IMG/VR virus record: IMGVR_UViG_3300046370_000009
Location: 1-29,786 of that record
From: a virus
Direction: 5' to 3' (one strand)
DNA length: 29,786 bases
Both the position numbers and the translations under genes were made by a program. The notes under the pieces were generated by a model. The model made no database searches. It had not been told where the DNA came from and worked only from the letters and a program-made list of their open reading frames with translations. Shown piece by piece: positions 2,839 through 29,786 of this stretch. Each line of letters begins with the position of its first letter. Position 1 is the first letter of the stretch.

Positions 2839-3399
2839 ATGGCGAGCAAGATCGACTTAATTAGCAATGCACTTATTCTAATTGGTGACACTCCGATTAA
2901 TTCACTTACTGGTGGATCACGGCGCGAGACTGTCGCAAACAATCTCTACGACAACATCGTCCAGAACGAGCTAACAAAGCATCGTTGGGGCTTTGCACGT
3001 CGTAAGGCGCAGATATCTCTGCTGACAGATACCCCGACTGATCCCAATGAGTGGAAGAGCATCTACCAGCTACCCACTGATTTACTATTCCTAATCACTG
3101 TTTCCCCTGATTCTAACTATCAGGTCTATGGCGATAAGGTTTACAGCAATTCATCGCAAGCCCTGTACGCTGATTACATTGCAAACGTCACTGAAGATGA
3201 GTGGCCCGTGTACTTTTCCAAGATGATCGAGTACGCACTGGCTATGGACTTCGCGGCGAGCATTAGAGACAGCTCTGCGGCACGAGGTGAGATGGCGGCG
3301 GCTTATGTGAATGCGTCCCGTATGGCGCGATTCACGGACTCTCAACAACATCCCACGCAACCGATACGAAGCAACCCATTCACTAATGTGAGGTACTAA
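2839..3399 (+). CDS. Tail tubular protein A (T7 gp11-like)
   Basis: This 186-residue protein matches the gp11-like tail tube / adaptor family in length (T7 gp11 is 196) and in pattern. The N-terminus KIDLISNALILIGD is followed by RRETVANNLYDNIVQNEL and the characteristic HRWGFARRKAQ. YQLPTDLLFL lies mid-protein, and a helical C-terminal half carries MIEYALAMDFAASI. The adaptor ring binds under the portal and connects to the nozzle protein. GGGTGG precedes the ATG. Its stop overlaps the next start (TAATG at 3397-3401), a coupling typical of these two tail genes. Confidence 0.9.
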   Translation: MASKIDLISNALILIGDTPINSLTGGSRRETVANNLYDNIVQNELTKHRWGFARRKAQISLLTDTPTDPNEWKSIYQLPTDLLFLITVSPDSNYQVYGDKVYSNSSQALYADYIANVTEDEWPVYFSKMIEYALAMDFAASIRDSSAARGEMAAAYVNASRMARFTDSQQHPTQPIRSNPFTNVRY

Positions 3400-5984
3400 T
3401 GGCTAAGACTCGATTCATTCAGTCTAGCTTTGTAAGTGGCGAGCTATCCCCGTTACTGAAGGGCCGCATTGATATCAACCAGTATTATCAGGCGGTAGAG
3501 ACTGCCGATAATGTTGTGATTGTCCCTCAAGGTGGAATGCGTCGGCGTCCGGGCACTTCGTTTGTAGGTCAGGGCGTAAATACATTAGTGGTTGATTCAT
3601 GGACCGGGACTATGCCCAATGGCGGCACTGTCGCGAGTCTCAATGACAATGACCGAAGCACCAGTACACAGACGACAACCCCGCCCGGCACTACAACCGA
3701 TTGGGTGTTTGTTGATTGCGATGTAAGCCTAGCATTCGGCAATATTGTATTTATCGAAGTGACCGACATGTTTACGACTGCCGGTTCCACTAGCGACATG
3801 ATGTTTCAGTATTCGACCGATGGCGGTACAACGTGGGTGGACCAGCAAGCCATTCCACTGATCGGCACTAACCCTCAGAACTTCCGTTTCCCTGTTGACC
3901 CTGCATCGGCGATTACCGATTGGCGCATCATTCGTGATGGCAGTGACAGCTTTGCGGGCAACATTGGTGCGTCGGGTGTTAACTATTACTACAGCGGTGG
4001 CAACCGAGACAGCAGAACCAAGCTAGAGAGCTTCGAGGTTGAGGCTGATCGCAACTATCTGGTTGAGTTTACGCCTGAGAACATCCGCATTTATCGCACT
4101 GACGCGACAACTGGTGACCCCGTACAGCGTGTGATCGACATACTACCGATCTGGAATGCCTACCCTGCTGGCTTTCTTTCGTTTATTGATGTTGAAAACA
4201 TTAGGGTAGCGACGGTTGAGAACGTCATGCTGATCGTTGGCAACTTCCAACCCCTTAGATTGGTCAATCTAGGTACGGATACTGATTGGTCGCTTGATGA
4301 AATACCATTCACCAACGTCCCTCAGTACGATTACGACGATGCACAAAGCCCAACACCTACCAGCGAGATACAGGTGATGACTCTGGGGCATACCGGATCG
4401 GGACAATGGAAGCGTGGCGACCGATTTGAAGTAGATATTGAAAGCGTAGTCTCAAAGTCTATTAGCTATGCGGGTGACTCAACTGCCGATGAGCAAGCCG
4501 CGACTGTCTTCAACATCCAGAAGAACCTGCAAGACATGCCGGTCTTTGGTGAGACGGGTGTACTGGTAGAAAGAACCGGAACCCAAGAGTATACGATCAC
4601 CATATCTGGTGAATCTGCCAAGGATTTCGAGCTATTCTCTGCGTATGTAACCGAAGGCTCTGCTGACCACGAGATAGACTTTACCAAGACGCAATCAGGC
4701 TCCCCACGTAAAGAGGATGTTTGGTCGTCTACCCGTGGATGGCCCAAGACCATTTGCTTTTATGAAGGCCGATTGGTTATTGGCGGCACAGCATCCAAGC
4801 CACAATCATTATTCCTTTCTAAGTCTTCTGACTTCTTTAACTTCGACATTGAAGAAGCGGATGATGACGATGCAATCTTTGCAACCATATCTTCTCGTAC
4901 ACTGAATGATATCGTTGACGTTTATCCCGGCAGAAACTTACAGGTGTTTACCTCTGGTGCAGAGTTTGCTGTAACGAGTAAGCCGGTAACCCCGAGCAAT
5001 ATCCAGATCACGCCACAAACAGCGCACGGCGCGAGCAATGTCGAAGTGCAGGACGTAGATGGCTCGACGATATTCATTGATCGCTTTGGTAAAGCCCTGT
5101 TGACGTTCCTGTACTCGTTCAATGAGGACGCATACACGAGTGATGACCGCTCTGTTCTTGCTAGTCACTTGATTAAACAGCCCCGTGACATGGCGCTTCT
5201 AGCGGGTACTGCAAGCGATGACGCTAACTGGCTATTCGTTGTTAACGATGACGGGACTGCCACCGTCTTGAACACCCTAAGAAGTCAGGATATCAACGGC
5301 TTCACTAGCTGGACGATGGACGATGCGGAAGTGACCAACGTGACAACCGTGGGCGAGAAGCTATTCATGGTTGTAGGTCGTAACCTTGGCCCGAGTGCTG
5401 GCGATATTTCCATTGAGCAATGGGACTTCACCCGATTACTGGACAGCAGTGTCCGTAAAACTGCGACGAGTGGGACTATTTCTGGGTTAGAACACCTCGA
5501 AGGCGAGACTGTCTCAATTGTCACACGCGGTGATGATAGTGACGAAAACGACGGGTTCGTATTGGCAGATCAAACGGTATCAGGTGGCTCGATTACCCTA
5601 CCCGCTCCCTATGACACAGGCTATTCAACCCTTGAATATGAGGTCGGGCGTCGATTCATACCGACTATCAAGCCCATGCCACTGAATACAAACATCGGAT
5701 CAGGCCAGAATCAGATGCGCTTGAAGAAAATCGTACGTATGAACGTACGTGTCTACGAGTCATCGGGCATCTATATCGACAATATCCCTGTGCCTATCCG
5801 GGCATTCGGCCCTGCTGGGGATGAGTCACCATTAAGTCCTGAGTCTATTACGCCGGTAAGTGGCATAATAGAGGACGTTTACGATATTAACGGCTGGGGT
5901 AGAGAGGTCATACCGACGATTACGTGTCCTGATCCTACGCCCATGCACATACAGATGATTGAATACGAAGTTGAGGGTAACTAG
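3399..5984 (+). CDS. Tail tubular protein B (nozzle, T7 gp12-like) with inserted domain
   Basis: This 861-residue protein opens with the hallmark of the family: SSFVSGELSPLLKGRIDINQYYQ, then NVVIVPQGGMRRRPGTSFV. A second family block at about residues 443-480 (RGWPKTICFYEGRLVIGG, SKSSDFFNF) leads into the beta-propeller region of the nozzle. In family members the sequence after RRPGT usually runs quickly to a block like NYLVEFTPENIRIYR. Here that block is delayed to about residue 215 by some 130 Ser/Thr/Gly/Asp-rich residues (about 65-195) that look like a beta-sandwich. The nozzle closes the tail and carries fibres or spikes, so the extra domain could bind glycans. It directly overlaps the adaptor gene. 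Confidence 0.88.
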   Translation: MAKTRFIQSSFVSGELSPLLKGRIDINQYYQAVETADNVVIVPQGGMRRRPGTSFVGQGVNTLVVDSWTGTMPNGGTVASLNDNDRSTSTQTTTPPGTTTDWVFVDCDVSLAFGNIVFIEVTDMFTTAGSTSDMMFQYSTDGGTTWVDQQAIPLIGTNPQNFRFPVDPASAITDWRIIRDGSDSFAGNIGASGVNYYYSGGNRDSRTKLESFEVEADRNYLVEFTPENIRIYRTDATTGDPVQRVIDILPIWNAYPAGFLSFIDVENIRVATVENVMLIVGNFQPLRLVNLGTDTDWSLDEIPFTNVPQYDYDDAQSPTPTSEIQVMTLGHTGSGQWKRGDRFEVDIESVVSKSISYAGDSTADEQAATVFNIQKNLQDMPVFGETGVLVERTGTQEYTITISGESAKDFELFSAYVTEGSADHEIDFTKTQSGSPRKEDVWSSTRGWPKTICFYEGRLVIGGTASKPQSLFLSKSSDFFNFDIEEADDDDAIFATISSRTLNDIVDVYPGRNLQVFTSGAEFAVTSKPVTPSNIQITPQTAHGASNVEVQDVDGSTIFIDRFGKALLTFLYSFNEDAYTSDDRSVLASHLIKQPRDMALLAGTASDDANWLFVVNDDGTATVLNTLRSQDINGFTSWTMDDAEVTNVTTVGEKLFMVVGRNLGPSAGDISIEQWDFTRLLDSSVRKTATSGTISGLEHLEGETVSIVTRGDDSDENDGFVLADQTVSGGSITLPAPYDTGYSTLEYEVGRRFIPTIKPMPLNTNIGSGQNQMRLKKIVRMNVRVYESSGIYIDNIPVPIRAFGPAGDESPLSPESITPVSGIIEDVYDINGWGREVIPTITCPDPTPMHIQMIEYEVEGN

Positions 5985-6401
5985 ATGGACCCGTTTACTA
6001 TATTGGCGATTGCCTTAACTGCTACGTCTGCGGCAACGTCCGCTTACGGTCAGGTGCAGGCGGGGAAAGCTCAAGAGATACAGCTAAAAGAGCAAGCGAA
6101 ACAAGAAGAGTTTGCGGCTCAGAGTCAGGAGCTACAGCGTCGGCAGGAATTGAACCGAGCATTAGCGGCTAATGTCGCGGCACTCTCTACAGCAGGAATA
6201 TCTGGGGAAGGTACGCCAGCTAGTCTGGCATTGGAAAGCGCCAAGCAAGTAGGTCTTAGCGAGATGACTATTGACCTATCAGAGCGTCTACGTAGGGCGT
6301 CATTACAGCGACAAGCGCAAACAGCAAAAGGCACAGCATACATTGGTGCGGCAAGTACATTGTTAAGTGGCGGCGCAAAGGCGGCGCAATTGGCGGAATA
6401 A
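5985..6401 (+). CDS. Small internal virion protein (T7 gp14-like)
   Basis: This 138-residue protein has a hydrophobic, Ala/Thr-rich N-terminus (PFTILAIALTATSAATSAYG, about 3-22), a long Gln/Glu/Lys-rich amphipathic helix (25-60), then GISGEGTPASLALESAKQ and a Gly/Ala C-terminus. That order is typical of the first ejectosome protein of podoviruses, expected to enter the outer membrane at infection. It starts at the base after the nozzle gene stop and is followed by the two larger internal proteins, reproducing the gp14-gp15-gp16 order. Sequence similarity to T7 gp14 itself is weak; the call rests on composition, length and order. Confidence 0.75.
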   Translation: MDPFTILAIALTATSAATSAYGQVQAGKAQEIQLKEQAKQEEFAAQSQELQRRQELNRALAANVAALSTAGISGEGTPASLALESAKQVGLSEMTIDLSERLRRASLQRQAQTAKGTAYIGAASTLLSGGAKAAQLAE

Positions 6402-6407
6402 ACAGTT

Positions 6408-8003
6408 ATGGCTCAGAAGCGCATTGATTACTACGGCAGGTTTACACCAACAGGTGTAGATACGTCTCAGGCTAAACGCTTGCAGGCTCTCTCTGGCTTG
6501 GCTGAACAGGTCGGCGGTATTGCGTATGATGTTGCTTCCGGCATTCAAGAGCGCCGAGGCTTGGAGGCTGGTCTTGCGGCTGGGCAACAGGCGGCAGAGA
6601 AAGGCGAGATCATTGAGACACAAAAAGGCTTTTTGTCACAGATCTCTATATTCGATCAGGCATATAACAACGCTATGTCAAAGGCATACGTTGCTGGCGT
6701 TGATAACGATGCGCGAGAGAACATTAACCGACTGCTGACTGACAACCCCGATGACATTGATGCGTTTGATTCCGCAGTGAATGCGTATCGAACAGGCGTC
6801 ACGCAGAACATAGCCGATGAGTTCAAGCCACTGATTGACCAGTCAATGGATCAGATGATCTCTAGCGCTCGGTCACAGGTACACCAAGCGCAAACAGCCA
6901 AGAATCTCAAGAGCGCAGATGACACGCTCATTCGCTCTGGTCAAACAGCAAGCGAGGCCGCATTGAAGGCGGCACGTATCGGTGACGATGAGTCGGCAAT
7001 GATCGGTCGTATGAATGCGTTTTCATCTTTTGATGCGCGTGTTGAAGCTGGAACGATGACTGAGGCGGCGGCTGAGACTGCAAAGCAAAATCTTATTGTA
7101 GCCACTGAAGGCGAGAAAGCCCGAGGTGGACTGCAAGCTATTATCAAGAATCGTGGCGCGTATGCGGCGGTTGAGTTTATCAATGCGGTAGCTGAGACGC
7201 CTGTTAGTAACTTCACGCTTGAACAGCAGGAAAATCTTGCAGATGTTCTACGTGCTGACTTGAACGAGTACATATCACTGACCAACATCCAAGAGAAGCA
7301 AGCTGAGGACGCACTGAAGGCCCGTCAAGGCGAGAACTTTACTAGCCTGTACGTTGGCATCATTGGCGGCGAGACGGACGTAGGCGACATTACACGCACT
7401 GCTATGGCTGGCAATCTCACGCAGTCACAACTGACTACACTGACCAATGTGATGAACACTCGCGGGCAAGGTATTGATGACTTCGATCTGATCTATGACA
7501 TCCAGACGCAGATGTATCAGAACCCAGAAGCGGCACGTGACTTGATTATTGCTAACACTGGCACACGGCTGACCGGATCTAGGGCGCAATCACTGCTGAC
7601 TACACTAGGCGAAGAGCCTATCTTGAACACGCCAAAGGCTACACGCTATCGCAAGTATGTCAGTACGAACGTGGGCATTGTTGATCCGATTACAGGTCGC
7701 TTTACTGGCGCAGGTACAAAAGAGCGAGCGGCTGACTTAATGCTGGCATTTGATGAGAAGATACTGGCTGGTGAAGATCCTTCCGCTGTCGCAGAGCAAT
7801 TGCTAGATATCAACGACATTCCACCTCAATTCACTAGCGAAGACGATGTGAACAAAGCGCTTGAGCGTTTAGCCGACCAAGTTGATACAACTTACAAAGA
7901 CAATAAGGCTGGCTACAATGCGGAAGAGGAAAAGTTACAGCAGTATTTAGTCCGCATTAGGAACTTCAAGAATATGATGGCTGATATTAAGAGAGGACAA
8001 TAA
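6408..8003 (+). CDS. Internal virion / DNA ejection protein (T7 gp15-like)
   Basis: This 531-residue, almost wholly alpha-helical protein is rich in Ala, Gln, Asp and Glu, with no membrane segment. It begins RIDYYGRFTPTGVDTSQAKRLQALSGLAEQ, a pattern seen at the start of podoviral ejection proteins. It sits second in the internal-protein trio, where T7 gp15 forms the periplasmic tunnel. T7 gp15 is longer (747), so this is a shorter version. The ATG overlaps the following gene's start region (TAATG at 8001-8005), implying coupled synthesis with the largest ejection protein. No enzymatic motif was noticed. Confidence 0.78.
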   Translation: MAQKRIDYYGRFTPTGVDTSQAKRLQALSGLAEQVGGIAYDVASGIQERRGLEAGLAAGQQAAEKGEIIETQKGFLSQISIFDQAYNNAMSKAYVAGVDNDARENINRLLTDNPDDIDAFDSAVNAYRTGVTQNIADEFKPLIDQSMDQMISSARSQVHQAQTAKNLKSADDTLIRSGQTASEAALKAARIGDDESAMIGRMNAFSSFDARVEAGTMTEAAAETAKQNLIVATEGEKARGGLQAIIKNRGAYAAVEFINAVAETPVSNFTLEQQENLADVLRADLNEYISLTNIQEKQAEDALKARQGENFTSLYVGIIGGETDVGDITRTAMAGNLTQSQLTTLTNVMNTRGQGIDDFDLIYDIQTQMYQNPEAARDLIIANTGTRLTGSRAQSLLTTLGEEPILNTPKATRYRKYVSTNVGIVDPITGRFTGAGTKERAADLMLAFDEKILAGEDPSAVAEQLLDINDIPPQFTSEDDVNKALERLADQVDTTYKDNKAGYNAEEEKLQQYLVRIRNFKNMMADIKRGQ

Positions 8004-11000
8004 TGGTTAGCAAGGTAATCACTGCTGTTGCAGAGGGTGTTGCTAAGGCTGGCCCAGAAACTCCCAAGTCAGGCTTCAAGGCTTATCACGGTAGTCCATA
8101 CAAGTTTGAGGAATTCGACTTCGGTGCGATTGGCACAGGCGAAGGCGCTCAGGCGTATGGCTATGGTTTGTACTTTGCTGAGGCGGAAGATGTTGCTCGT
8201 GGATACAAAGAGGCGCTAACTAATCCTCGCATTGAAGTAGAGGGTAAGCCTGCTGACCTTATTTATACAGACGCAATTCGAGATCGCTTTTCAGATTTAT
8301 ATGAAGAGTTTGTTGATGACGATTCGGTTATTGAATTCAAAGAAACGTATTTGTCTGCTGTCCCCGCTGGGAAGCGCAAAGAGATTAGTGACGCACTAGA
8401 TAGCTTGGTTGATGCAACATTTAAAGGCCAAGAAACAACACGAGACTTTGATGCCTTTAGCCCAGACTTAAACGATGCGGTTCGAGAAGAAACTGGCGTA
8501 GACATAAATGACGTTTATGACTTGGTTAGAAGCCAAGAAGTTTTAGATAACGTCTTGAGCAACATGAGCCAAGCAAGTACCGAAAGTGACTTGTCAAACG
8601 TCGTCATGTCATTTGGCCCAGAAGAAAAACGATTCTTTCAGACCTACATTCAGCCGCGAATGGAGTTCGTCCAACCAGAAGGCGCAATGTATGAGGTTCA
8701 AATTAAAGCGGGTCAGGACGAGCTGATTAACTGGGATAGGCCCGTTAGAGAACAACCGCCAAAGATACGAGACGCCTTACTAAAACTTGAGGGTGTTGAT
8801 GAGAACACTAAAGGTGAGTTTGCGTATTACCGACTAGCACCTCAAGCAACAGGTAGAGAGGCGCAAAAGCAAGCCACAGAGAAAGCGAAAGAACTTGGCA
8901 TAAAAGGAATTACGTATGCCGACGGCTTCTCGCGTAAGACTGAAGGCGGTACAAGTAACTTTGTAGTCTTTGATCCACGTATCATCGAGATATCTAAGCA
9001 ATACGGCATAGCACTTCCAATGGCTGGCCTCATGCTGGCTAACCAAGAGGCTGAAGCCGCTGAGTCCATGGCTCTAACTACTGAGCCACGCCCACCAATG
9101 CGTATGCCTACGTTTGAGAATGACGACGCTACTGGCAAGGTGCTTGATGCACGACAAGGCGCAGACCTATCGCCATACGACCGGGCCATGATGAAGGCTC
9201 AGGCACAGCAAGAGCCAATGACACCCTTCGAGGCCATACCTGCAAGAGCTGAACGCTTTGCTCGTGAGGTCACGATACCCGCATTCAGAGATATCTTTGG
9301 CGGAGCAATCGAAGCACCACGTCAAGCTGTAGCTGGCTTCCTTGATGCGACTGCTGAAGCGGCTAGGACAATGGAGTCAATCATCCCGCTAGGCACTATT
9401 AGCGGTGCTGAACCCGAATATATTGAGATTGAAGCCGATCCTCGCACCGTAACGGGCGCAGGTGTACGTGCTATCAGTCAGTTCCTTACGGGCTTTGTCC
9501 CTGCATTGCGCGGTGTTAAGGCGCTTGGTGTCACAGGCGTTGCGGCTCCGGCGGCGGCAGGTGCTATCGCTGACGCTACAGTATTCGATCCGCAAGAAGA
9601 GCGACTGTCTAACCTGATCCAAGACGTACCCTCTTTACAGAACCCAGTCACGGAATACCTTGCGGCTAGTCCAGAAGACACAGACGCCGAGGGACGCTTT
9701 AAAAACGCCGTGGAAGGGCTTGCATTAGGTGGTGTAGCAGACGGCCTGATTCAAGGTGTACGCCTTGTGAAGAACCGCAGGGCGCTTGTAGAAGCGGCTG
9801 AGGCCGAAGGCAAGCCAGTAGAGCAGATGATTGAAGAGGCCATGGCTACCATGAAGGGCGGAATGCCGACCCCTCGTGAGATGCCGCCCGGTCAAGAGTA
9901 CATACCGTTTGATGAGGCGGCTGAAGCTGTACAGCCAACTATCCGAGTGCCTGAGTTCAAGATGGGCGCTACAGATGCAGACCCAGAAGCCGCACGTAAT
10001 ATCAATCTAGCTAACCTCAACACAACCGAGGACGTATCAACCCTCATTGATGAAGTAGCTAGAGCAGACGCACCGAACATTAACGATGCGCGTCGTCAAA
10101 AGATTACTAACCAAGACCTTCCAAAGTTAGCCGATGATCTTGGTATGACTGTCGATGACCTATTGGCACGTCGGCAAGGTGAGGCGTTTAACGCAGAACA
10201 GATCCTAGCGGCTCGTAAAGTCTTAGTGGCCTCTGGTGAGAACCTAGTCAAGCTGGCTGGCGCGGCAAAGAACGGCAGTGAGATGGACCTTGCTCTATTC
10301 CGCAGGGCTATGTCACAGCACAGAGCCATTCAGTCACAAGTATCAGGTATGACGGCTGAGGCTGGTCGTGCATTGCAGTCATTCCGAGTTGTGGCGGCAA
10401 GTTCAAGAGAGCAAGAGCGACTGATTAAAGAGGCGCTTCAGACTACAGGCGGCGAAGCTGTGTCGCGTGACATGGCGGCTATGCTGTCAGAGTTGGATGA
10501 TCCCGCTCAGATTGGTCGTTTTGTTAAGGATGCGAACAAGGCAACTACCAAAGACCAGCTTTACGAGATATGGATCAATGGCTTGCTGTCGTCACCTACG
10601 ACTCACATGGTCAACATACTATCGAACACGATAGTCGCGGCCTTGACTGTTGGCGAGCGTAAGATTGCAAGCGCTATCGGCCCCAACATTCCACCGGGTG
10701 AAACATCCGCACAGCTCAAGGGCTTGGTAGATGGTGCGCGTGACGGCTTCCGATTGGCATGGAATGCACTTAAGACGGGTGAACCTACCGACCCAATGCA
10801 GAAAGTAGAGGCTGAGAAGTTCCGCGCAGTGACTTCTGAGAACCTCAACATTGCTGGCCCTGCTGGTCGCTTTGCTGACTTCATGGGTGAAGCGATACGT
10901 GTGCCCGGTCGTCTGCTAACGGCTGGTGACGAATACTTTAAGTCTGTCGGCTACCGCATGGAGCTATACGCACAGGCTTACCGTCAGGCATTTAACGAAG

Positions 11001-12274
11001 GCTTACGTGATGAAGCGGCGGCAAAGCGTGTTGTTGAGATCATCGAGAACCCGCCTGAGAACATTAAACAGTCGGCTATTGATGCGTCACGCTACCAGAC
11101 CTTTACTAACCAGCTAGGCAAGACAGGTAAGGCTGTTGAGCAGGTTCGGAATAACATCCCATACGCTCGTGTCGTTATGCCGTTTGTCCGTACACCCGTG
11201 AATGTCATGTCGTATGCGTTTGAGCGTACACCTCTGGCTCCGCTGTCTGGCTCATTTAGAGAAGAGATCGCGGCAGGTGGTGCACGTCGCGACCTAGCAA
11301 TGGGCAAGCTCATCGCTGGCTCAATGGCTATGGCGGTATCTGCTGACCTTGTATTGAGCGGATCTATCACAGGAGCAGGGCCAACCAATCCCAAAATGCG
11401 AAACATCATGCGAGCTACTGGCTGGCAACCGTACTCGATCAAAGTAGGTGACAAGTATTACGCATACAACCGCCTTGACCCTGTTGGCGCATTGTTAGGT
11501 TTATCGGCTGACGTGACTGAGATTATTGGACAGACAACCGAAGCTGAAGCGGCTCAGATTGCTACGGCGGCGGCACTGTCCGTTGCTCAGAACATGGCAA
11601 GCAAGACGTATATGTCAGGTGTTACTGACTTCTTTGATGCCTTCTTCTCTGCAAGTCTTGATCCCGAGTCCAGCAACTACAAGCTAACATCTTACTTACA
11701 GCGCATGGCGGCGTCGGTTGTTCCTGCAAGCGTGGCGAACATTGAGCGCTTTCTAAGCCCGGAGATGAGCGCAACGTATGGATTCTTAGATCGCGTTAAG
11801 TCACGTATCCCCGGATACTCAGACGACTTGCCACCACGTCGTAACATCTTTGGCGAACCCATTGTATTAGAAGGCGGTATTGGCCCCGATATCATGTCGC
11901 CTATCTACACGTCTACAGCAAAGGATGACCCTATTGCAGATGAGATGGTACGCCAGCAGGTGGCCGTAGGTATGCCGCGCAGACAGATCCAAGGCATTGA
12001 ATTAGATGCCCAGCAATATGATCGTTACGTTCTTTTGTATAGTGGTATTGAGGCGCAGACTTCTTTGAAGGATCAGCTTCGCACCATGTTCAATGCAAGA
12101 GAATACAAAAATGCTTCAGATGGGCCTGAAGGTGGTAAGGCTTTAATGATAAAATCGGTATTCACAGCATACAGAGACATGGCGCAAGCGCAGATGTTGG
12201 CTGAGGATGACCAACTAACTAACCAGATCACGCTCGCGCAAGAGCAAAGAGTAGAGAAACTACTGGGACGCTGA
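8003..12274 (+). CDS. Giant ejection protein with N-terminal ADP-ribosyltransferase (ART-PolyVal-like) domain
   Basis: This 1423-residue protein is third of the internal trio, the position of T7 gp16 (1318 aa). Residues 27-60 carry KAYHGSPYKF and GTGEGAQAYGYGLYFAE, which match the ADP-ribosyltransferase domain of phage polyvalent proteins. H29 and Y57 are the expected NAD-binding pair. The domain closes with YEVQIKAG (230-237), INWDRP, GIKGITYADG and NFVVFDPRIIEI (319-330). Between the LYFAE and YEVQI blocks lie about 165 residues, much more than in compact members, encoded by visibly AT-richer DNA. The remainder is helical, with WINGLLSSPTTHMVN (about 857) and WQPYSIKVGDKYYAYNRLDP (about 1140), blocks common in large phage internal proteins. 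No lytic transglycosylase motif was seen. Ejection would deliver the ART domain into the host. Confidence 0.8.
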   Translation: MVSKVITAVAEGVAKAGPETPKSGFKAYHGSPYKFEEFDFGAIGTGEGAQAYGYGLYFAEAEDVARGYKEALTNPRIEVEGKPADLIYTDAIRDRFSDLYEEFVDDDSVIEFKETYLSAVPAGKRKEISDALDSLVDATFKGQETTRDFDAFSPDLNDAVREETGVDINDVYDLVRSQEVLDNVLSNMSQASTESDLSNVVMSFGPEEKRFFQTYIQPRMEFVQPEGAMYEVQIKAGQDELINWDRPVREQPPKIRDALLKLEGVDENTKGEFAYYRLAPQATGREAQKQATEKAKELGIKGITYADGFSRKTEGGTSNFVVFDPRIIEISKQYGIALPMAGLMLANQEAEAAESMALTTEPRPPMRMPTFENDDATGKVLDARQGADLSPYDRAMMKAQAQQEPMTPFEAIPARAERFAREVTIPAFRDIFGGAIEAPRQAVAGFLDATAEAARTMESIIPLGTISGAEPEYIEIEADPRTVTGAGVRAISQFLTGFVPALRGVKALGVTGVAAPAAAGAIADATVFDPQEERLSNLIQDVPSLQNPVTEYLAASPEDTDAEGRFKNAVEGLALGGVADGLIQGVRLVKNRRALVEAAEAEGKPVEQMIEEAMATMKGGMPTPREMPPGQEYIPFDEAAEAVQPTIRVPEFKMGATDADPEAARNINLANLNTTEDVSTLIDEVARADAPNINDARRQKITNQDLPKLADDLGMTVDDLLARRQGEAFNAEQILAARKVLVASGENLVKLAGAAKNGSEMDLALFRRAMSQHRAIQSQVSGMTAEAGRALQSFRVVAASSREQERLIKEALQTTGGEAVSRDMAAMLSELDDPAQIGRFVKDANKATTKDQLYEIWINGLLSSPTTHMVNILSNTIVAALTVGERKIASAIGPNIPPGETSAQLKGLVDGARDGFRLAWNALKTGEPTDPMQKVEAEKFRAVTSENLNIAGPAGRFADFMGEAIRVPGRLLTAGDEYFKSVGYRMELYAQAYRQAFNEGLRDEAAAKRVVEIIENPPENIKQSAIDASRYQTFTNQLGKTGKAVEQVRNNIPYARVVMPFVRTPVNVMSYAFERTPLAPLSGSFREEIAAGGARRDLAMGKLIAGSMAMAVSADLVLSGSITGAGPTNPKMRNIMRATGWQPYSIKVGDKYYAYNRLDPVGALLGLSADVTEIIGQTTEAEAAQIATAAALSVAQNMASKTYMSGVTDFFDAFFSASLDPESSNYKLTSYLQRMAASVVPASVANIERFLSPEMSATYGFLDRVKSRIPGYSDDLPPRRNIFGEPIVLEGGIGPDIMSPIYTSTAKDDPIADEMVRQQVAVGMPRRQIQGIELDAQQYDRYVLLYSGIEAQTSLKDQLRTMFNAREYKNASDGPEGGKALMIKSVFTAYRDMAQAQMLAEDDQLTNQITLAQEQRVEKLLGR

Positions 12275-12275
12275 T

Positions 12276-14288
12276 ATGACCGTAGCAGACAATACAAGCC
12301 GTAACCAATATACCGCGACTTCTGGGCAAACAGTATTCGCGTATACATTCGAGATCGTAAACAAGGACGATGTTGTCGTCTTAAAGAACGGTACTACCCT
12401 CTCAGAGGGCACAGATTACACTGTGTCGAACGTGGGCAATGATAGTGGTGGCAATGTAACCCTTGCCGTTGGCGCGACTGCTGGCGACATTCTGACCCTG
12501 TATCGGGACATGCCTTACTCGCGAACCCAGAACTATACAAACTCTGGTGACTTCCTTGCCTCTGAGGTTAACAGCGACTTCGATAATCTCTGGCTGGCGG
12601 GTGAACAGACTCAGCGATCATTCTCTCAGTCTATCCGCAAGCCTATTACCGATTCTGACTCTATCTCGATGGAGCTACCCGAGGCGGCTACTCGTACCAA
12701 TAGCTTTCTAACCTTTGATGCAACTGGCGCGGTAAGCACTCAATCGTTATCAAGTGCAAACACACCATCTAACATTAACCGACAGCAGTTCACAGGTAAT
12801 GGCTCAACGACTGTATTTACTCTAGCGGCTGATCCCGGCTCCCCTGCCGCTGTTGTCATCTACATTGACGGCGTATATCAGGAAGAAGGCACTTATAGCG
12901 TAAGTGGAACTACGCTGACATTTACTGAGGCACCGCCTACTAACGCAAGCATTGAGGTTGTTAGCTACAAAGTAACAGCGATTGGCACGACCGATGCTAA
13001 CTCTGTCACCTATACACCCGCTGGCACTGGCGCAGTACAGACCACAGTACAGACCAAGCTAAGAGAGAGCGTTAGCGTCAAGGACTTCGGAGCAGTAGGG
13101 GATGGAGTTACTGACGACACTGCGGCTATACAGGCGGCATTGGATTATGCAAAAGATATAACGATCGGGTCGGCGGTAGGCGCTGAAGTATTCATGCCAA
13201 GCGGTCACTATATTATCTCTTCAACAATCATATTGAGAGATAAGGTTGCGTTGCGCGGCAATGGGAATCGCTCGACATTTGTACAAGCAAAATCGACGTT
13301 TACCGATCTTTATATGTTCCGAGCGTATGATGAGCCAGCCCCGACCACTTCAATGTTTGGTGCGTTTTTGACTGATATGCAGATTGATTTTAATGATCTG
13401 AATATTTCTGGATCGGCGGCTGTGTATGCACAAGCATGGCAAGAAAACTCAGGTCTACGCAGAGTTGTGATTACTGGCTGGCGAGACACGGCGGTAAAGA
13501 TAACTGACGGTTTTGGTGGTGCGGCGTCATTAAAGTTTGAAGATGTGGAGATATTTAGCTCCACTGATGGTGGCTTGATTGGTATTGATTGTCGAGAAAT
13601 ATCTTCAACCGGAGATTTTTTCTTAGAGATAGATCAATGCACAATTGCAGGTGACTCCACAAACAAACTAAATGAATGTATACGTGTTGCAAAAGATACG
13701 CTATATGCTTCTGGCCTTCATTTTGAGCAAGCCACTAATGGCGTCTCTTTGTATGATGTTGCCGACTTTCAAGCCACTACGATCTCAGGTGGTCCCGGAG
13801 TAACCAGCGTCATCATTAGAAATTCCACCCATACGGGGAATATTTCTTTAGGCAAGCTGGCAAAGAGAACAGCGACAAACGCTATTGATGACAATAGATC
13901 GTCGGGTGCTGGTCCAGATATCACTAGAGACTTGTTAAATTACAATGATGCTCCAGCAGTAGGATCAAACGCTGGCATAGTTGCTTGGTGTGTCTTTAAT
14001 GCTGGTACCACAACTATCATTGATAGTTATAACGTATCTACGATCACGCAGAATGCCGCTGGCGATTTTACTTTTAACTTCACTAATCCTACACCAGCAC
14101 TCGCAAGCGGTGGAGATCGGCCAGTGTCAGGAAATTTTAGTGTGACAACAACCGATGAGCTTTGGATACAAAACAAAGGCGGCACAGTAAATTCACACAG
14201 AGTTATGTGGAAGCGCGGCGGTGCTTATTCTGGCGGTGGATATAACGATCCTCGTGCAAGCGTAATTATTTTTGGCAGGTCTGCATGA
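12276..14288 (+). CDS. Tail spike with T7-fibre-like anchor and pectate-lyase-fold domain
   Basis: This 670-residue protein has three parts. Residues 1-130 resemble the virion-anchoring domain of T7 gp17-type fibres (YTATSGQTVFAYTF, DILTLYRDMPYSRTQNY, DFDNLWLAGEQ). Residues 165-235 form a repeated beta module with FTGNGSTTVFTLAADPGSP. At about 266 the start of a pectate-lyase-type right-handed beta-helix appears (VKDFGAVGDGVTDDTAAIQA), followed by a Ser/Gly/Asp-rich beta region to the C-terminus. It should be the receptor-binding or polysaccharide-degrading spike. DNA from about 13140 to the stop is more AT-rich than the anchor part, as in exchanged spike tips. The start is ATG in GCTGATATG, 1 base after the previous stop. 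Confidence 0.87.
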   Translation: MTVADNTSRNQYTATSGQTVFAYTFEIVNKDDVVVLKNGTTLSEGTDYTVSNVGNDSGGNVTLAVGATAGDILTLYRDMPYSRTQNYTNSGDFLASEVNSDFDNLWLAGEQTQRSFSQSIRKPITDSDSISMELPEAATRTNSFLTFDATGAVSTQSLSSANTPSNINRQQFTGNGSTTVFTLAADPGSPAAVVIYIDGVYQEEGTYSVSGTTLTFTEAPPTNASIEVVSYKVTAIGTTDANSVTYTPAGTGAVQTTVQTKLRESVSVKDFGAVGDGVTDDTAAIQAALDYAKDITIGSAVGAEVFMPSGHYIISSTIILRDKVALRGNGNRSTFVQAKSTFTDLYMFRAYDEPAPTTSMFGAFLTDMQIDFNDLNISGSAAVYAQAWQENSGLRRVVITGWRDTAVKITDGFGGAASLKFEDVEIFSSTDGGLIGIDCREISSTGDFFLEIDQCTIAGDSTNKLNECIRVAKDTLYASGLHFEQATNGVSLYDVADFQATTISGGPGVTSVIIRNSTHTGNISLGKLAKRTATNAIDDNRSSGAGPDITRDLLNYNDAPAVGSNAGIVAWCVFNAGTTTIIDSYNVSTITQNAAGDFTFNFTNPTPALASGGDRPVSGNFSVTTTDELWIQNKGGTVNSHRVMWKRGGAYSGGGYNDPRASVIIFGRSA

Positions 14289-22666: not shown

Positions 22667-22686
22667 CATCTATCCGGGGGGAGATG

Positions 22687-23850
22687 ATGTCATTACTTGA
22701 GTATTGTACTACCGACAGACAACGACAAATTGTAGAGCTTCACGAGCAGGGCTTGGGCTACACCAAGATCAGCCAGCAGATAGGCATTGGCCGTCTTAGT
22801 GTCAGAGATTGCATTAAAAACGTAAAAAATAAAGCCGCCACCCAAGGCTATTCACCCGAGCACGACATGACTCGCACCGTCCCCGATACCTTTACGGTCA
22901 AAGGGGTGTCCACCTACTACAACGAGGACGGAAAACCTGTTGGTCAGTGGGTTAAGTCAATGGCTGACAAGGAAGCGATGCTTGAGGCGGCGCTTGAGTC
23001 ATTCAAGGCTGGATTCCTTGAAGAGATAGATGGCCTCTACAAGCCCATAGAAGCTCCAGAAGCGGCAAAGAATGAAGATAGGCTATCAGCTTATCTAATC
23101 GGAGATCATCACCTGAACGCCCTCTGCTGGTCCCCTGAGACGGGTGGCGATGACTGGGATACAAACATTGCTCAAGACGTACTGATCAAGGCCGTTGATA
23201 AGCTGGTCTCTGCGGCAGGTGACTCAGAAGTGGGTGCACTGATTAACTTGGGTGACTTCCTTCACGCTAACTCAGGTGACAACAAGACAGCCAAAGGAAC
23301 CCCGGTCGATGTTGATGGAAGACTGGGCCGGGTCATCCGTATTGTCGGGAACCTATTCAAAGTTCTAGTCACTCGTATGTTGGAGACGCACAAAGAAGTG
23401 TGGCTGATCAACGTAAGGGGTAACCATGATCCCGATGCGAGCCTATGGCTAAACGAAATGATGCGCCTCTACTTCCATGATGAACCACGGGTGAAAGTGT
23501 TCGACAACTTCTCCAAGTGGATACATTTTGAATGGGGCAAGACTCTTGTTGTTATGCACCACGGAGACCGGGTAAAGACTCAGGCGCTCTATGAGGCTGT
23601 GACAAGAGACTACGCAGAGGAATGGGGTCGCACGACTAACCGATACTTATATCACGGGCATATCCACCACCGGACTGTGACGGAGATGGGCGGCTTGCAC
23701 CTCGAATCGTTTGGCGTGTTATGTCCACCGGATGCGTACCATTCAGCTTCGGGCTATGGGTCCGCAAGGTCCATGTCCTGCGTTATACTCGATAAGAGCT
23801 ACGGCGAGCACAGTCGATTCAAAGTTGGCATTGATGAGGTTAAAGCATGA
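22687..23850 (+). CDS. HTH-fused metallophosphoesterase (calcineurin-like)
   Basis: About 387 residues (one more if ATG 22684 is used; GGGGGGAG is closer to ideal for 22687). Counting from 22684, residues 10-45 are a helix-turn-helix (RQIVELHEQGLGYTKISQQI, then a recognition helix). From about 135 the full calcineurin-like metal site follows: GDHH (140-143), NLGDFLH (D191), RGNHD (247-249), MHHGD (292-295) and HGHIHH (324-329). All metal ligands are present, so a two-metal phosphodiesterase, nuclease or phosphatase is expected. Phages encode such enzymes in replication and recombination blocks. The fused DNA-binding domain suggests that the substrate is DNA or a DNA-bound nucleotide complex. 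It overlaps the next gene at ATGA. Confidence 0.83.
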   Translation: MSLLEYCTTDRQRQIVELHEQGLGYTKISQQIGIGRLSVRDCIKNVKNKAATQGYSPEHDMTRTVPDTFTVKGVSTYYNEDGKPVGQWVKSMADKEAMLEAALESFKAGFLEEIDGLYKPIEAPEAAKNEDRLSAYLIGDHHLNALCWSPETGGDDWDTNIAQDVLIKAVDKLVSAAGDSEVGALINLGDFLHANSGDNKTAKGTPVDVDGRLGRVIRIVGNLFKVLVTRMLETHKEVWLINVRGNHDPDASLWLNEMMRLYFHDEPRVKVFDNFSKWIHFEWGKTLVVMHHGDRVKTQALYEAVTRDYAEEWGRTTNRYLYHGHIHHRTVTEMGGLHLESFGVLCPPDAYHSASGYGSARSMSCVILDKSYGEHSRFKVGIDEVKA

Positions 23851-24092: not shown

Positions 24093-24243
24093 GTGCTTCA
24101 AAATCATGGTCCCCCAGTTTAAGCAGGAATACCCGCATAAGCTGGAAGGCTGGTCATGTGACTGCGGGAACAGCGAAAAGGCAATACTTCGAGAGCGTCA
24201 ATACACGAGGGCCGATGATGGCAGTCAAACGCGAACAGTGTGA
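24079..24243 (+). CDS. Small zinc-ribbon protein
   Basis: ATG 24079 gives 54 residues with MKCTECFKIM (CxxC) and WSCDCGN (CxC), four cysteines in a layout that can bind one zinc. The in-frame ATG at 24043 lies deep inside the previous gene and is less likely. The remainder is basic and polar. Such mini zinc-ribbons in phage early blocks are generally DNA-, RNA- or protein-binding. It overlaps its neighbours on both sides and ends within the HNH gene. Confidence 0.55.
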   Translation: MKCTECFKIMVPQFKQEYPHKLEGWSCDCGNSEKAILRERQYTRADDGSQTRTV

Positions 24244-24601
24244 TATCTGGTTTTCAAAGGCGGTAAGGTTACGAGATCAGAAGTGCTTGCACTGCCACAA
24301 AGACGATCGACTTGAGTGCGCCCATATCTACGGACGGGCAAACAAGCGAGTCAGATGGGCCATGTCAAACGCTACCGCTCTGTGCCATGCCTGCCACCGT
24401 TACTTCACGTCCAATCCGATAGCATTCCATGATTGGCTGAATGATCTGCTGGGCGAGGAACACATGGACAAGTTGCGGATGGATCGCAATGAGATATACA
24501 AGACTAATAAACTATTGAGGAAGGATATCGCGGCGCATTACCGCGATGAGGTCAGGCGTAAGGAACTTGATCCTGATTACGAGATTCAGAGCTGGAACTA
24601 A
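24218..24601 (+). CDS. HNH-type endonuclease (NinG-like organisation)
   Basis: ATG 24218 is preferred (GAGG 7 bases upstream), giving 127 residues; ATG 24215 is an alternative. Zinc pairs are C23xxC26 and C56xxC59. The HNH residues are probably H36 (LECAHI), N51 (SNATAL) and H60 (ACHRYF), followed by FHDWLNDLLG. The layout RD..CL.C......L..AH..GR....R....N...LC..CH matches small HNH enzymes and resembles lambda NinG, a recombination nuclease. It may resolve or nick recombination intermediates, consistent with the annealing protein and SSB nearby. Its 3' end overlaps the convergent sigma-4-like gene by 50 bases. Confidence 0.75.
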   Translation: MAVKREQCDIWFSKAVRLRDQKCLHCHKDDRLECAHIYGRANKRVRWAMSNATALCHACHRYFTSNPIAFHDWLNDLLGEEHMDKLRMDRNEIYKTNKLLRKDIAAHYRDEVRRKELDPDYEIQSWN

Positions 24602-28655: not shown

Positions 28656-29786
28656 ATGAGCTTGCCCCCGCATCTAGGCTCGATCCAAGATATTAAGGAA
28701 CGAGAGCAAAAGGCATTCAGCACTCAGGCAATGTGGCACGACCAATTGCAGGATGTGTATGAATATTTCCTACCTCAGCGAAACCTGTTCGACACTGAGA
28801 ACACAGGCCAGAAGAAGATGGACCGCATCTTTGACTCGACTGCGTTGACAGCTATCCAACAGGGCGCGAGCAAGCTACAAGAGAACATCGCACCGATCAT
28901 GTCGCGTTGGGCTACCTTCCAGCCGACCGATGAGATCATCCGATTGGTCGAATCAGGTCAGTTCGATGTGTCTGAAGAGGACATCCGAGCGAACCTAGAC
29001 CAGCAATGCGAGCTGGTATTCGACTATATCAACCGTTCCAACTTCCATACGCAGTTCTATGAGGCGGCACTCGATCTATTGGTAGGCACTGCCACCATGA
29101 AGATTGAAGAAACGGACGATGAGACCAATCCTATTTGCTTCAATACGATCCCGCAGAAGGGTATCGCGTTTGAGGAAGGTCCGTATGGTGGCGTTGAGAC
29201 GCACTGGCGACGGTTTGAGGTTAAGGCTCGCTTGTTAGAGCGCATGTGGCAGGGCTTTGAGGCGTCACAGAAGATCCGCAACATGATCGAGAACAGCCCC
29301 AACAGCGAAGTCCGTGTATCTGAGGGCGTCATATTCGACCCTAAAGACAAGAAGTATTACGGTTGCCTATGGGTGGCAGAGGAAAACCGATTCTCATGGA
29401 CTGAAGACTTCGGCCAATCAAGCCCTTGGGTTACTGGTCGCTACACAAAGGTGGCTGGTGAGGTCCGCGGTCGCGGTCCAGCTATGCAATCACTGCCCGA
29501 TGTACGCTCATTGAACAAAGCGAAAGAGTTTGTATTGCAGAAGGCCGCAATCGACCTTGCTGGTATGTACACAGCTACTGACGATGGCGTTACTAACCCG
29601 TACAATATGGTCATTGCACCGGGTGTCGTGATTCCAGTCGGATCAAACAACACCAACAACCCTTCTATTCAACGTCTCGATACAGGATCGAACCTTGCTC
29701 TCGCGCAATTCGAAATCGTGGAGCTACAAAACGCTATCAAGTTGGCACTGTTCAACGACTTGCGTGATCCTGCTGGTCCTGTTCGT
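28656..29786 (+). CDS. Portal (head-tail connector) protein, N-terminal part
   Basis: ATG 28656 opens a frame that is still open at the window end and continues at bases 58-489 after the 57-base overlap is collapsed; the joined protein has 520 residues. The start MSLPPHLGSIQDIKEREQKAF leads to WHDQLQDVYEYFLPQRNLF and KKMDRIFDSTALTAIQQGA, hallmark blocks of podoviral head-tail connectors. MSRWATFQPTDE follows, then a long alpha/beta body. It forms the dodecameric ring that TerL docks on. Weak AGGT precedes the ATG. The family is very well supported. Confidence 0.95.
   Translation, partial: MSLPPHLGSIQDIKEREQKAFSTQAMWHDQLQDVYEYFLPQRNLFDTENTGQKKMDRIFDSTALTAIQQGASKLQENIAPIMSRWATFQPTDEIIRLVESGQFDVSEEDIRANLDQQCELVFDYINRSNFHTQFYEAALDLLVGTATMKIEETDDETNPICFNTIPQKGIAFEEGPYGGVETHWRRFEVKARLLERMWQGFEASQKIRNMIENSPNSEVRVSEGVIFDPKDKKYYGCLWVAEENRFSWTEDFGQSSPWVTGRYTKVAGEVRGRGPAMQSLPDVRSLNKAKEFVLQKAAIDLAGMYTATDDGVTNPYNMVIAPGVVIPVGSNNTNNPSIQRLDTGSNLALAQFEIVELQNAIKLALFNDLRDPAGPVR
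29730..29786. repeat. Terminal direct repeat, copy 2 (contig overlap)
   Basis: These bases are identical to bases 1-57. They lie in the portal gene and keep its frame. They show that the assembled molecule closes on itself. Physical ends of the packaged DNA cannot be placed from this. Confidence 0.95.

Follow-up and report, generated by a model that had tools for sequence, protein, structure and literature searches.

A PolyVal-type ADP-ribosyltransferase domain in a variable N-terminal slot of a predicted podovirus ejection protein

Delivery of ADP-ribosyltransferases (ARTs) by phage virions was proposed in 2017 with a comparison to the Alt protein of T4, the prototype being the N4-like virion RNA polymerase of Roseovarius Plymouth podovirus 1 (Iyer et al., PMC5512222). 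A survey published in 2022 found ARTs in 3% of podoviruses (PMC9503650). We analyzed a 29,786-base stretch of viral DNA (IMG/VR record IMGVR_UViG_3300046370_000009, positions 1 to 29,786), hereafter the window, in which one open reading frame (ORF) encodes a protein of 1423 amino acids (aa) in the position of T7 gp16. We favor, with some reserve, the reading that aa 1-~337 of this protein are an H-Y type PolyVal ART, carried as a cargo domain on the ejection protein of a 30-kb podovirus and delivered to act on the host at the start of infection.

8003..12274, + strand: predicted ejection protein in the gp16 position, 1423 aa, composed of ART, linker and internal-virion-protein core (ORF, PHROG 6651, tblastn)
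8066..9013, + strand: PolyVal-type ART domain, aa ~22-337 (Pfam PF18760, phrog_873, alignment, AlphaFold, Foldseek)

The identification of the N-terminus as a PolyVal-type ART of the H-Y class is well supported. The ATG of the ORF overlaps the stop of the preceding ORF and is accompanied by a Shine-Dalgarno-like stretch (AGAGAGGA). The Pfam family ART-PolyVal (PF18760) matches aa 27-70 (E=9e-6, 26.9 bits) and phrog_873 matches the second half of the domain, aa 218-335 (E=1e-15); because of these two values the match, judged by sequence, is not a chance one. A first-pass annotation of the window had placed an ART at 8003-9000, at the front of the protein. Pfam, phrog_873, a 62-member alignment and an AlphaFold model all bear out the domain and, broadly, its span, which ends slightly further on, at about aa 337 (9013). 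The motifs quoted there are present, YHGSP at aa 28-32 (containing H29) and NFVVFDPRIIEI at the end of the domain, aa 319-330, and between them lies IGTGEGAQAYGYGLYFAE at aa 43-60 (containing Y57). The profile search that it proposed against ART-PolyVal gave the low E-value above, with a score under the curated gathering cutoff of 31.2 bits; two relatives of the same layout pass it (L002 with 38.0 and L004 with 33.1 bits), the relative L097 reaches 31.2 bits and L003 scores 29.7. We therefore place the window domain beside ART-PolyVal on account of its relatives and its fold, not of its own score alone. No transglycosylase was found in the 1423-aa protein by Pfam or PHROG, as had been noted before, and Pfam gave only ART-PolyVal. 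The PHROG label of phrog_873, "endolysin," was rejected as a sign of a hydrolase, since only the ART region of the profile, positions ~1093-1206 of 1277, is matched. Among PDB sequences, the ART profile retrieved spurious matches and no others, and the full protein nothing useful.

The AlphaFold2 model of aa 1-346 has a mean predicted local distance difference test (pLDDT) value of 89.6. H29 lies in a strand at aa 25-31, Y57 in one at aa 56-59, and the closing strand pair is formed by aa 318-322 and 328-334. The fold is interrupted by a helical insert:

8255..8659, + strand: insert of helices only within the ART fold (aa ~85-219), more variable than any other part (DSSP of the model; identities over aa 75-219)

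With Foldseek, the model retrieves viral BFVD entries that bear the name ART-PolyVal, the lowest E being 1e-12. A short homolog of 222 aa (L054), 45% identical and modeled with a pLDDT of 88.7, finds its best matches in the PDB among diphtheria-class ART domains, RES-Xre enzymes (ranks 4-5), tankyrases, PARP4 and PARP15. The ART fold, whose absence from a prediction had been named as a refutation, is thus recovered in the predicted structures through these PDB and BFVD matches, with scores that are moderate rather than overwhelming.

The residues expected at the active site are strongly conserved in the 62 aligned ARTs, which are 22-91% identical to the window domain:

8087..8089, + strand: H29 codon (His in 61/61 sequences)
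8171..8173, + strand: Y57 codon (62/62)
8204..8206, + strand: Y68 codon (62/62 in the alignment; Phe in L099, L102 and L105)
8957..8959, + strand: N319 codon (Asn in 58/60 aligned sequences, Asp in the other 2/60)

E47 is likewise invariant (62/62), and R311 is kept in 61/62. We take H29, Y57, Y68 and N319 to be the counterparts of PARP1 H862, Y896, Y907 and E988, an assignment made by eye from the PARP1 motif spacing: the 11 residues from Y57 to Y68 equal those from Y896 to Y907, and SNFVVFD is set against NEYIVYD around N319/E988. N319 stands at a strand start, and two aspartates in its vicinity are candidates for a third active-site Asp, D324 just after it (48/62 rows) and D307 before it (60/62). 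The active site of the ART-PolyVal family is given as H-Y-D, with the Asp in strand 5 (Iyer et al., 2017, PMC5512222), and PARPs in which the Glu is replaced are mono-ADP-ribosyl transferases, some working by substrate-assisted catalysis (PMC9189837). An Asn at the E988 position is therefore an argument against polymer synthesis but none against activity, and mono-ADP-ribosylation or cleavage of nicotinamide adenine dinucleotide (NAD) seems likelier for this domain than polymer formation. The earlier suggestion that conserved H29 and Y57 point to activity is fair as far as it goes; it leaves out the third position and the three relatives that carry altered residues in the same slot. These are L105 (H29T and Y68F), L099 and L102 (both Y68F), all three with R311K as well; their alleles, on a nearly identical carrier, are natural candidates for inactive or altered enzymes.

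Like the ART-PolyVal/Tox-ART-HYD2 clade (PMC5512222), the window domain has its His in strand 1 and its Tyr in strand 2, comes from a phage and matches the same Pfam model, and like the prototype it is fused to a large protein of the virion that presumably enters the cell. It differs from this clade in its score just under the cutoff, its large helical insert and its Asn at the E988 position, for which the same paper gives an Asp in strand 5. The carrier also differs from that of the prototype, being a T7-like ejection protein and not a virion RNA polymerase, with a slot that varies between close relatives. T4 Alt, of the Alt/VIP2 clade, is similar in predicted role, a virion-borne ART delivered with the DNA for early action on the host. 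The active site of that clade is R-S-E, whereas that of the window is H29/Y57/N319 (H-Y-N) and so lies outside Alt/VIP2; moreover, Alt is a separate myovirus head protein, whereas the window ART is a domain of an ejection protein. The comparison "like Alt but in a podovirus" thus holds for the predicted role, but the idea was already in PMC5512222 and Alt belongs to a different clade.

Behind the ART, the carrier consists of two further parts:

9014..9424, + strand: linker after the ART, in which a hydrophobic stretch (IALPMAGLMLANQEAEAAES) comes first; most close relatives are 87-98% identical to it from ~aa 338 on
9425..12271, + strand: conserved internal-virion-protein core, aa 475-1423 (PHROG 6651, tblastn, comparison with relatives)

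PHROG 6651, an internal virion protein profile, matches aa 968-1422 (E=5e-58), and in tblastn aa ~430-1400 match genes for "internal virion protein D" of marine phages, mostly at 23-28% identity. The local gene order is tail tube A, tail tube B, gp14-like, gp15 position, ORF 8003-12274 and tail spike. This order, together with the annotated internal virion proteins that are homologous to aa ~430-1423, points to an ejected internal virion protein, as the first-pass annotation had it, with packaging and ejection themselves predicted. T7 gp16 (internal virion protein D) is comparable in its place in the gene order, its size class and its N-terminal enzymatic domain on the last ejection protein, but that domain is a transglycosylase instead of an ART and the sequences are not detectably related: hhalign gave a probability of 0.5% between T7 gp16 (phrog_342) and the core (phrog_6651). 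The T7 topology is therefore not transferable to the window protein, and we use "gp16" for the position and for a family of marine T7-like core proteins, not for proven orthology. Pfam detected no ART in six annotated internal virion proteins that share this core family. The hydrophobic stretch directly after the ART (9014-9070, aa 338-356) also occurs in many stand-alone relatives, often as (K/R/Q)YGI..P.AA.., and in 19 of the 61 non-identical post-ART tails the Kyte-Doolittle mean over 17 residues is above 1.2.

We surveyed the contents of this N-terminal slot over the best 80 contigs. Fifteen loci encode relatives that were retrieved with the window's own core (86-96% identical). Compared gene by gene, aa 338-1423 are 86-95% identical, except in L009 (72%), whereas aa 1-337 are 34-92% identical in the 11 distinct ART-bearing contigs compared; a twelfth close relative, L109, has no match to the ART and holds an unrelated domain in the slot. 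A sliding comparison of 11 sequences gave mean identities of 0.15-0.63 in the slot versus 0.81-0.96 for aa 321-1360, the shift between the two being abrupt and near aa 320-340. For 8 of the 11 relatives with an ART, identity in the helical insert (aa 75-219) is 22-32%. In close pairs, the ratio of nonsynonymous to synonymous substitution rates (dN/dS) is 0.04-0.15 for the ART, near that of the core (0.05-0.12); the domain is therefore maintained, each allele being kept by selection. ART alleles appear, from these comparisons, to be exchanged among related phages. Other genes of the same loci vary too, the gp15-position protein (53-93% identical) and tail tube B (63-96%) among them, and the distal part of the tail spike is almost wholly replaced. 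Tail tubular protein B (3399-5984), about 65% identical in most close relatives and 96% in L097 and L107, is a second mosaic point in the structural module.

A wider core search with a local profile scan extended this picture. The ART is present in L135, whose core is 52% identical, and in L134 it is followed in tandem by an L109-type domain, which occurs without ART in L109, L128, L131, L132 and L136. L133, L137 and L138 have short N-termini of 115-126 aa, and among more distant cores a short N-terminus that lacks the ART is the usual state. The wider relatives showed no T7-type transglycosylase at their N-termini, and the long N-terminus of L183 had no PDB match. The L109-type domain (L109:5270-6700), about 400 aa long, has no Pfam or PHROG match; its relatives in the annotated phages C72C1 and CRP-902 lie near the portal gene, much as an ART of Sulfitobacter phage phiGT1 lies between portal and capsid genes. 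A hypervariable region containing the internal virion protein has been reported for pelagiphage HTVC010P, as cited in PMC10504331. We suggest tentatively, as a possibility somewhat short of an even chance, that the ejection-protein N-terminus is a hypervariable effector cassette, in which ART alleles, another domain, both or none sit on one conserved engine and match varying host targets or defenses before phage gene expression. The variation of the slot had been missed in the first-pass annotation and is an addition to it.

ARTs of this kind recur in other phages and ejection modules. Gp5 of phiGT1 (QLB38217) and a protein of vir555 (Caudoviricetes sp., DBA35080) belong to the same ART subfamily, with 33-42% identity and the same motifs. 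Unlike the window domain, phiGT1 gp5 is a stand-alone gene of 387 aa; vir555, like the window, has its ART in the gp16-position protein, but internally, at aa ~487-735 of 1974. In L046 (5740-11858) a gp15-position ORF directly upstream of the core homolog has an M15 peptidase mid-protein and the ART at its end. Four further contigs (L051, L073, L083, L092) carry the ART in large ORFs (1683-2984 aa) that lie downstream of tail tube B. In L181 the core is split over two ORFs: the first opens with the beginning of the core and ends with the ART, and the next encodes the remainder. In the subfamily at large, the neighbors of stand-alone ARTs are mainly portal, terminase and scaffold genes. Our literature search, which reached few subscription papers, found none on ARTs in T7-like ejection proteins. 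Three features appear to be new: a carrier of the T7-like kind, a placement in ejection modules that recurs, and a slot whose content can be swapped.

In the mechanism that we propose, the protein would be packed in the internal head core, as homology and gene order suggest, and would exit the virion before or with the DNA, as in T7-like phages. The ART would then meet NAD+ inside the cell and, going by its fold and residues, would transfer a single ADP-ribose to a host molecule, or cleave NAD+, at the very start of infection. The exchange of slot contents seen among relatives would fit a host-directed effector with a varying target or an opposing defense.

Several points weigh against this reading. 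The window model matches the PDB weakly in Foldseek, probably because of the helical insert; its top match, a cyanophage A4 pre-ejectosome chain (E=0.19, root-mean-square deviation 12), was too weak for use. The PDB fold matches of L054 are moderate (best E=6e-3, probability 0.89, template modeling score ~0.34). The third catalytic position is Asn instead of Glu, and three relatives keep the domain despite altered residues, L105 even with H29T. Slot contents are known partly from contig fragments, and packaging, ejection, access to NAD+, catalysis and a host target are predictions. NAD+ is scarce in the periplasm, and an ART held there would be without it. In T7, the gp16 N-terminus (aa 1-156) forms periplasmic wings that carry the transglycosylase (PMC8954989), so that arrival of the enzyme in the cytoplasm is not given. 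The T7 siting is not decisive for the window ART, because no relation to T7 gp16 is detectable and the ART stands at different places in different ejection proteins.

The delivered ART might instead work only as an NAD+ glycohydrolase (or phosphorolase) that drains or alters NAD signals of the host or of NAD-based defenses and modifies no macromolecule. The RES-Xre toxin structures among the L054 matches, the Asn in place of the catalytic Glu and the frequency of NAD-based anti-phage systems (PMC9503650) would all suit such an activity. We nevertheless consider it unlikely, as the large variable helical insert resembles a partner-recognition surface more than an NADase requires, and the few copies per virion expected of a T7-like particle would do little for bulk NAD depletion.

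We think it quite unlikely that the domain is a pseudo-enzyme or a structural piece of the ejection tunnel, replacing the periplasmic N-terminal domain of T7 gp16 and kept for binding rather than catalysis. Its N-terminal position is that of the T7 wing domain (PMC8954989), and among the relatives with substituted residues dN/dS is 0.044 between L099 and L102, so that the altered Y68F form is still under selection, beside the doubly changed L105. However, H29, Y57, Y68 and N319 otherwise show next to no variation among the 62 diverse members, the homologous cores without ART (L133, L137, L138) show that the tunnel can do without the domain, and the ART also occurs at other places in other proteins. 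That it acts on phage or host proteins in the producing cell, while late genes are expressed or particles assembled, with its presence in the virion incidental, would agree with a late structural-gene fusion but is very unlikely, since the fusion to a predicted ejection protein recurs in different phages and a late-acting enzyme would need none.

The window as a whole has the genes of a short-tailed phage (podovirus): portal, capsid, tail tubular proteins A and B, gp14-like protein, gp15-position protein, ejection ORF, tail spike and terminase. The genes around the ejection ORF are the following:

2839..3399, + strand: tail tubular protein A-like (phrog_394, E=4e-37)
3399..5984, + strand: tail tubular protein B-like (phrog_376, E=1e-110)
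5985..6401, + strand: gp14-like internal virion protein (phrog_418, E=4e-5)
6408..8003, + strand: gp15-position protein, 531 aa, without family match (Pfam, PHROG)
12276..14288, + strand: tail fiber/spike protein following the ejection module (phrog_1640, E=5e-30; pectate-lyase-like domain)

The two ends of the window share 57 identical bases (1-57 and 29730-29786), and the portal gene spans the join. Because of this terminal repeat, and because portal halves joined unchanged would duplicate 19 residues, the window probably represents a circular molecule of 29,729 bases. The nearest annotated relative of the terminase is that of Burkholderia podovirus BcepC6B (50% identical), and a megablast search with 25 kb of the window retrieved no close isolate from among annotated phages. 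In the scanned ORFs, some small ones lying outside the scan, there was no match to a phage RNA or DNA polymerase. Elsewhere, 22684-23850 and 24158-24601 encode a DNA repair exonuclease-like protein (phrog_704, E=9e-96; calcineurin-like phosphoesterase match) and a NinG/Rap-like protein.

If our reading of the ART as a delivered cargo domain is true, small podoviruses without a recognized RNA polymerase of their own would deliver a host-modifying enzyme with their DNA, on a protein that helps to build the entry channel, and the delivered enzyme would vary faster than the rest of its carrier. The active-looking, altered, replaced and empty versions of the slot on a near-identical carrier provide a natural comparison set, and the host molecules that decide the first minutes of infection would become testable. 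T7-like ejection machines would then be carriers of exchangeable enzyme domains into bacteria.

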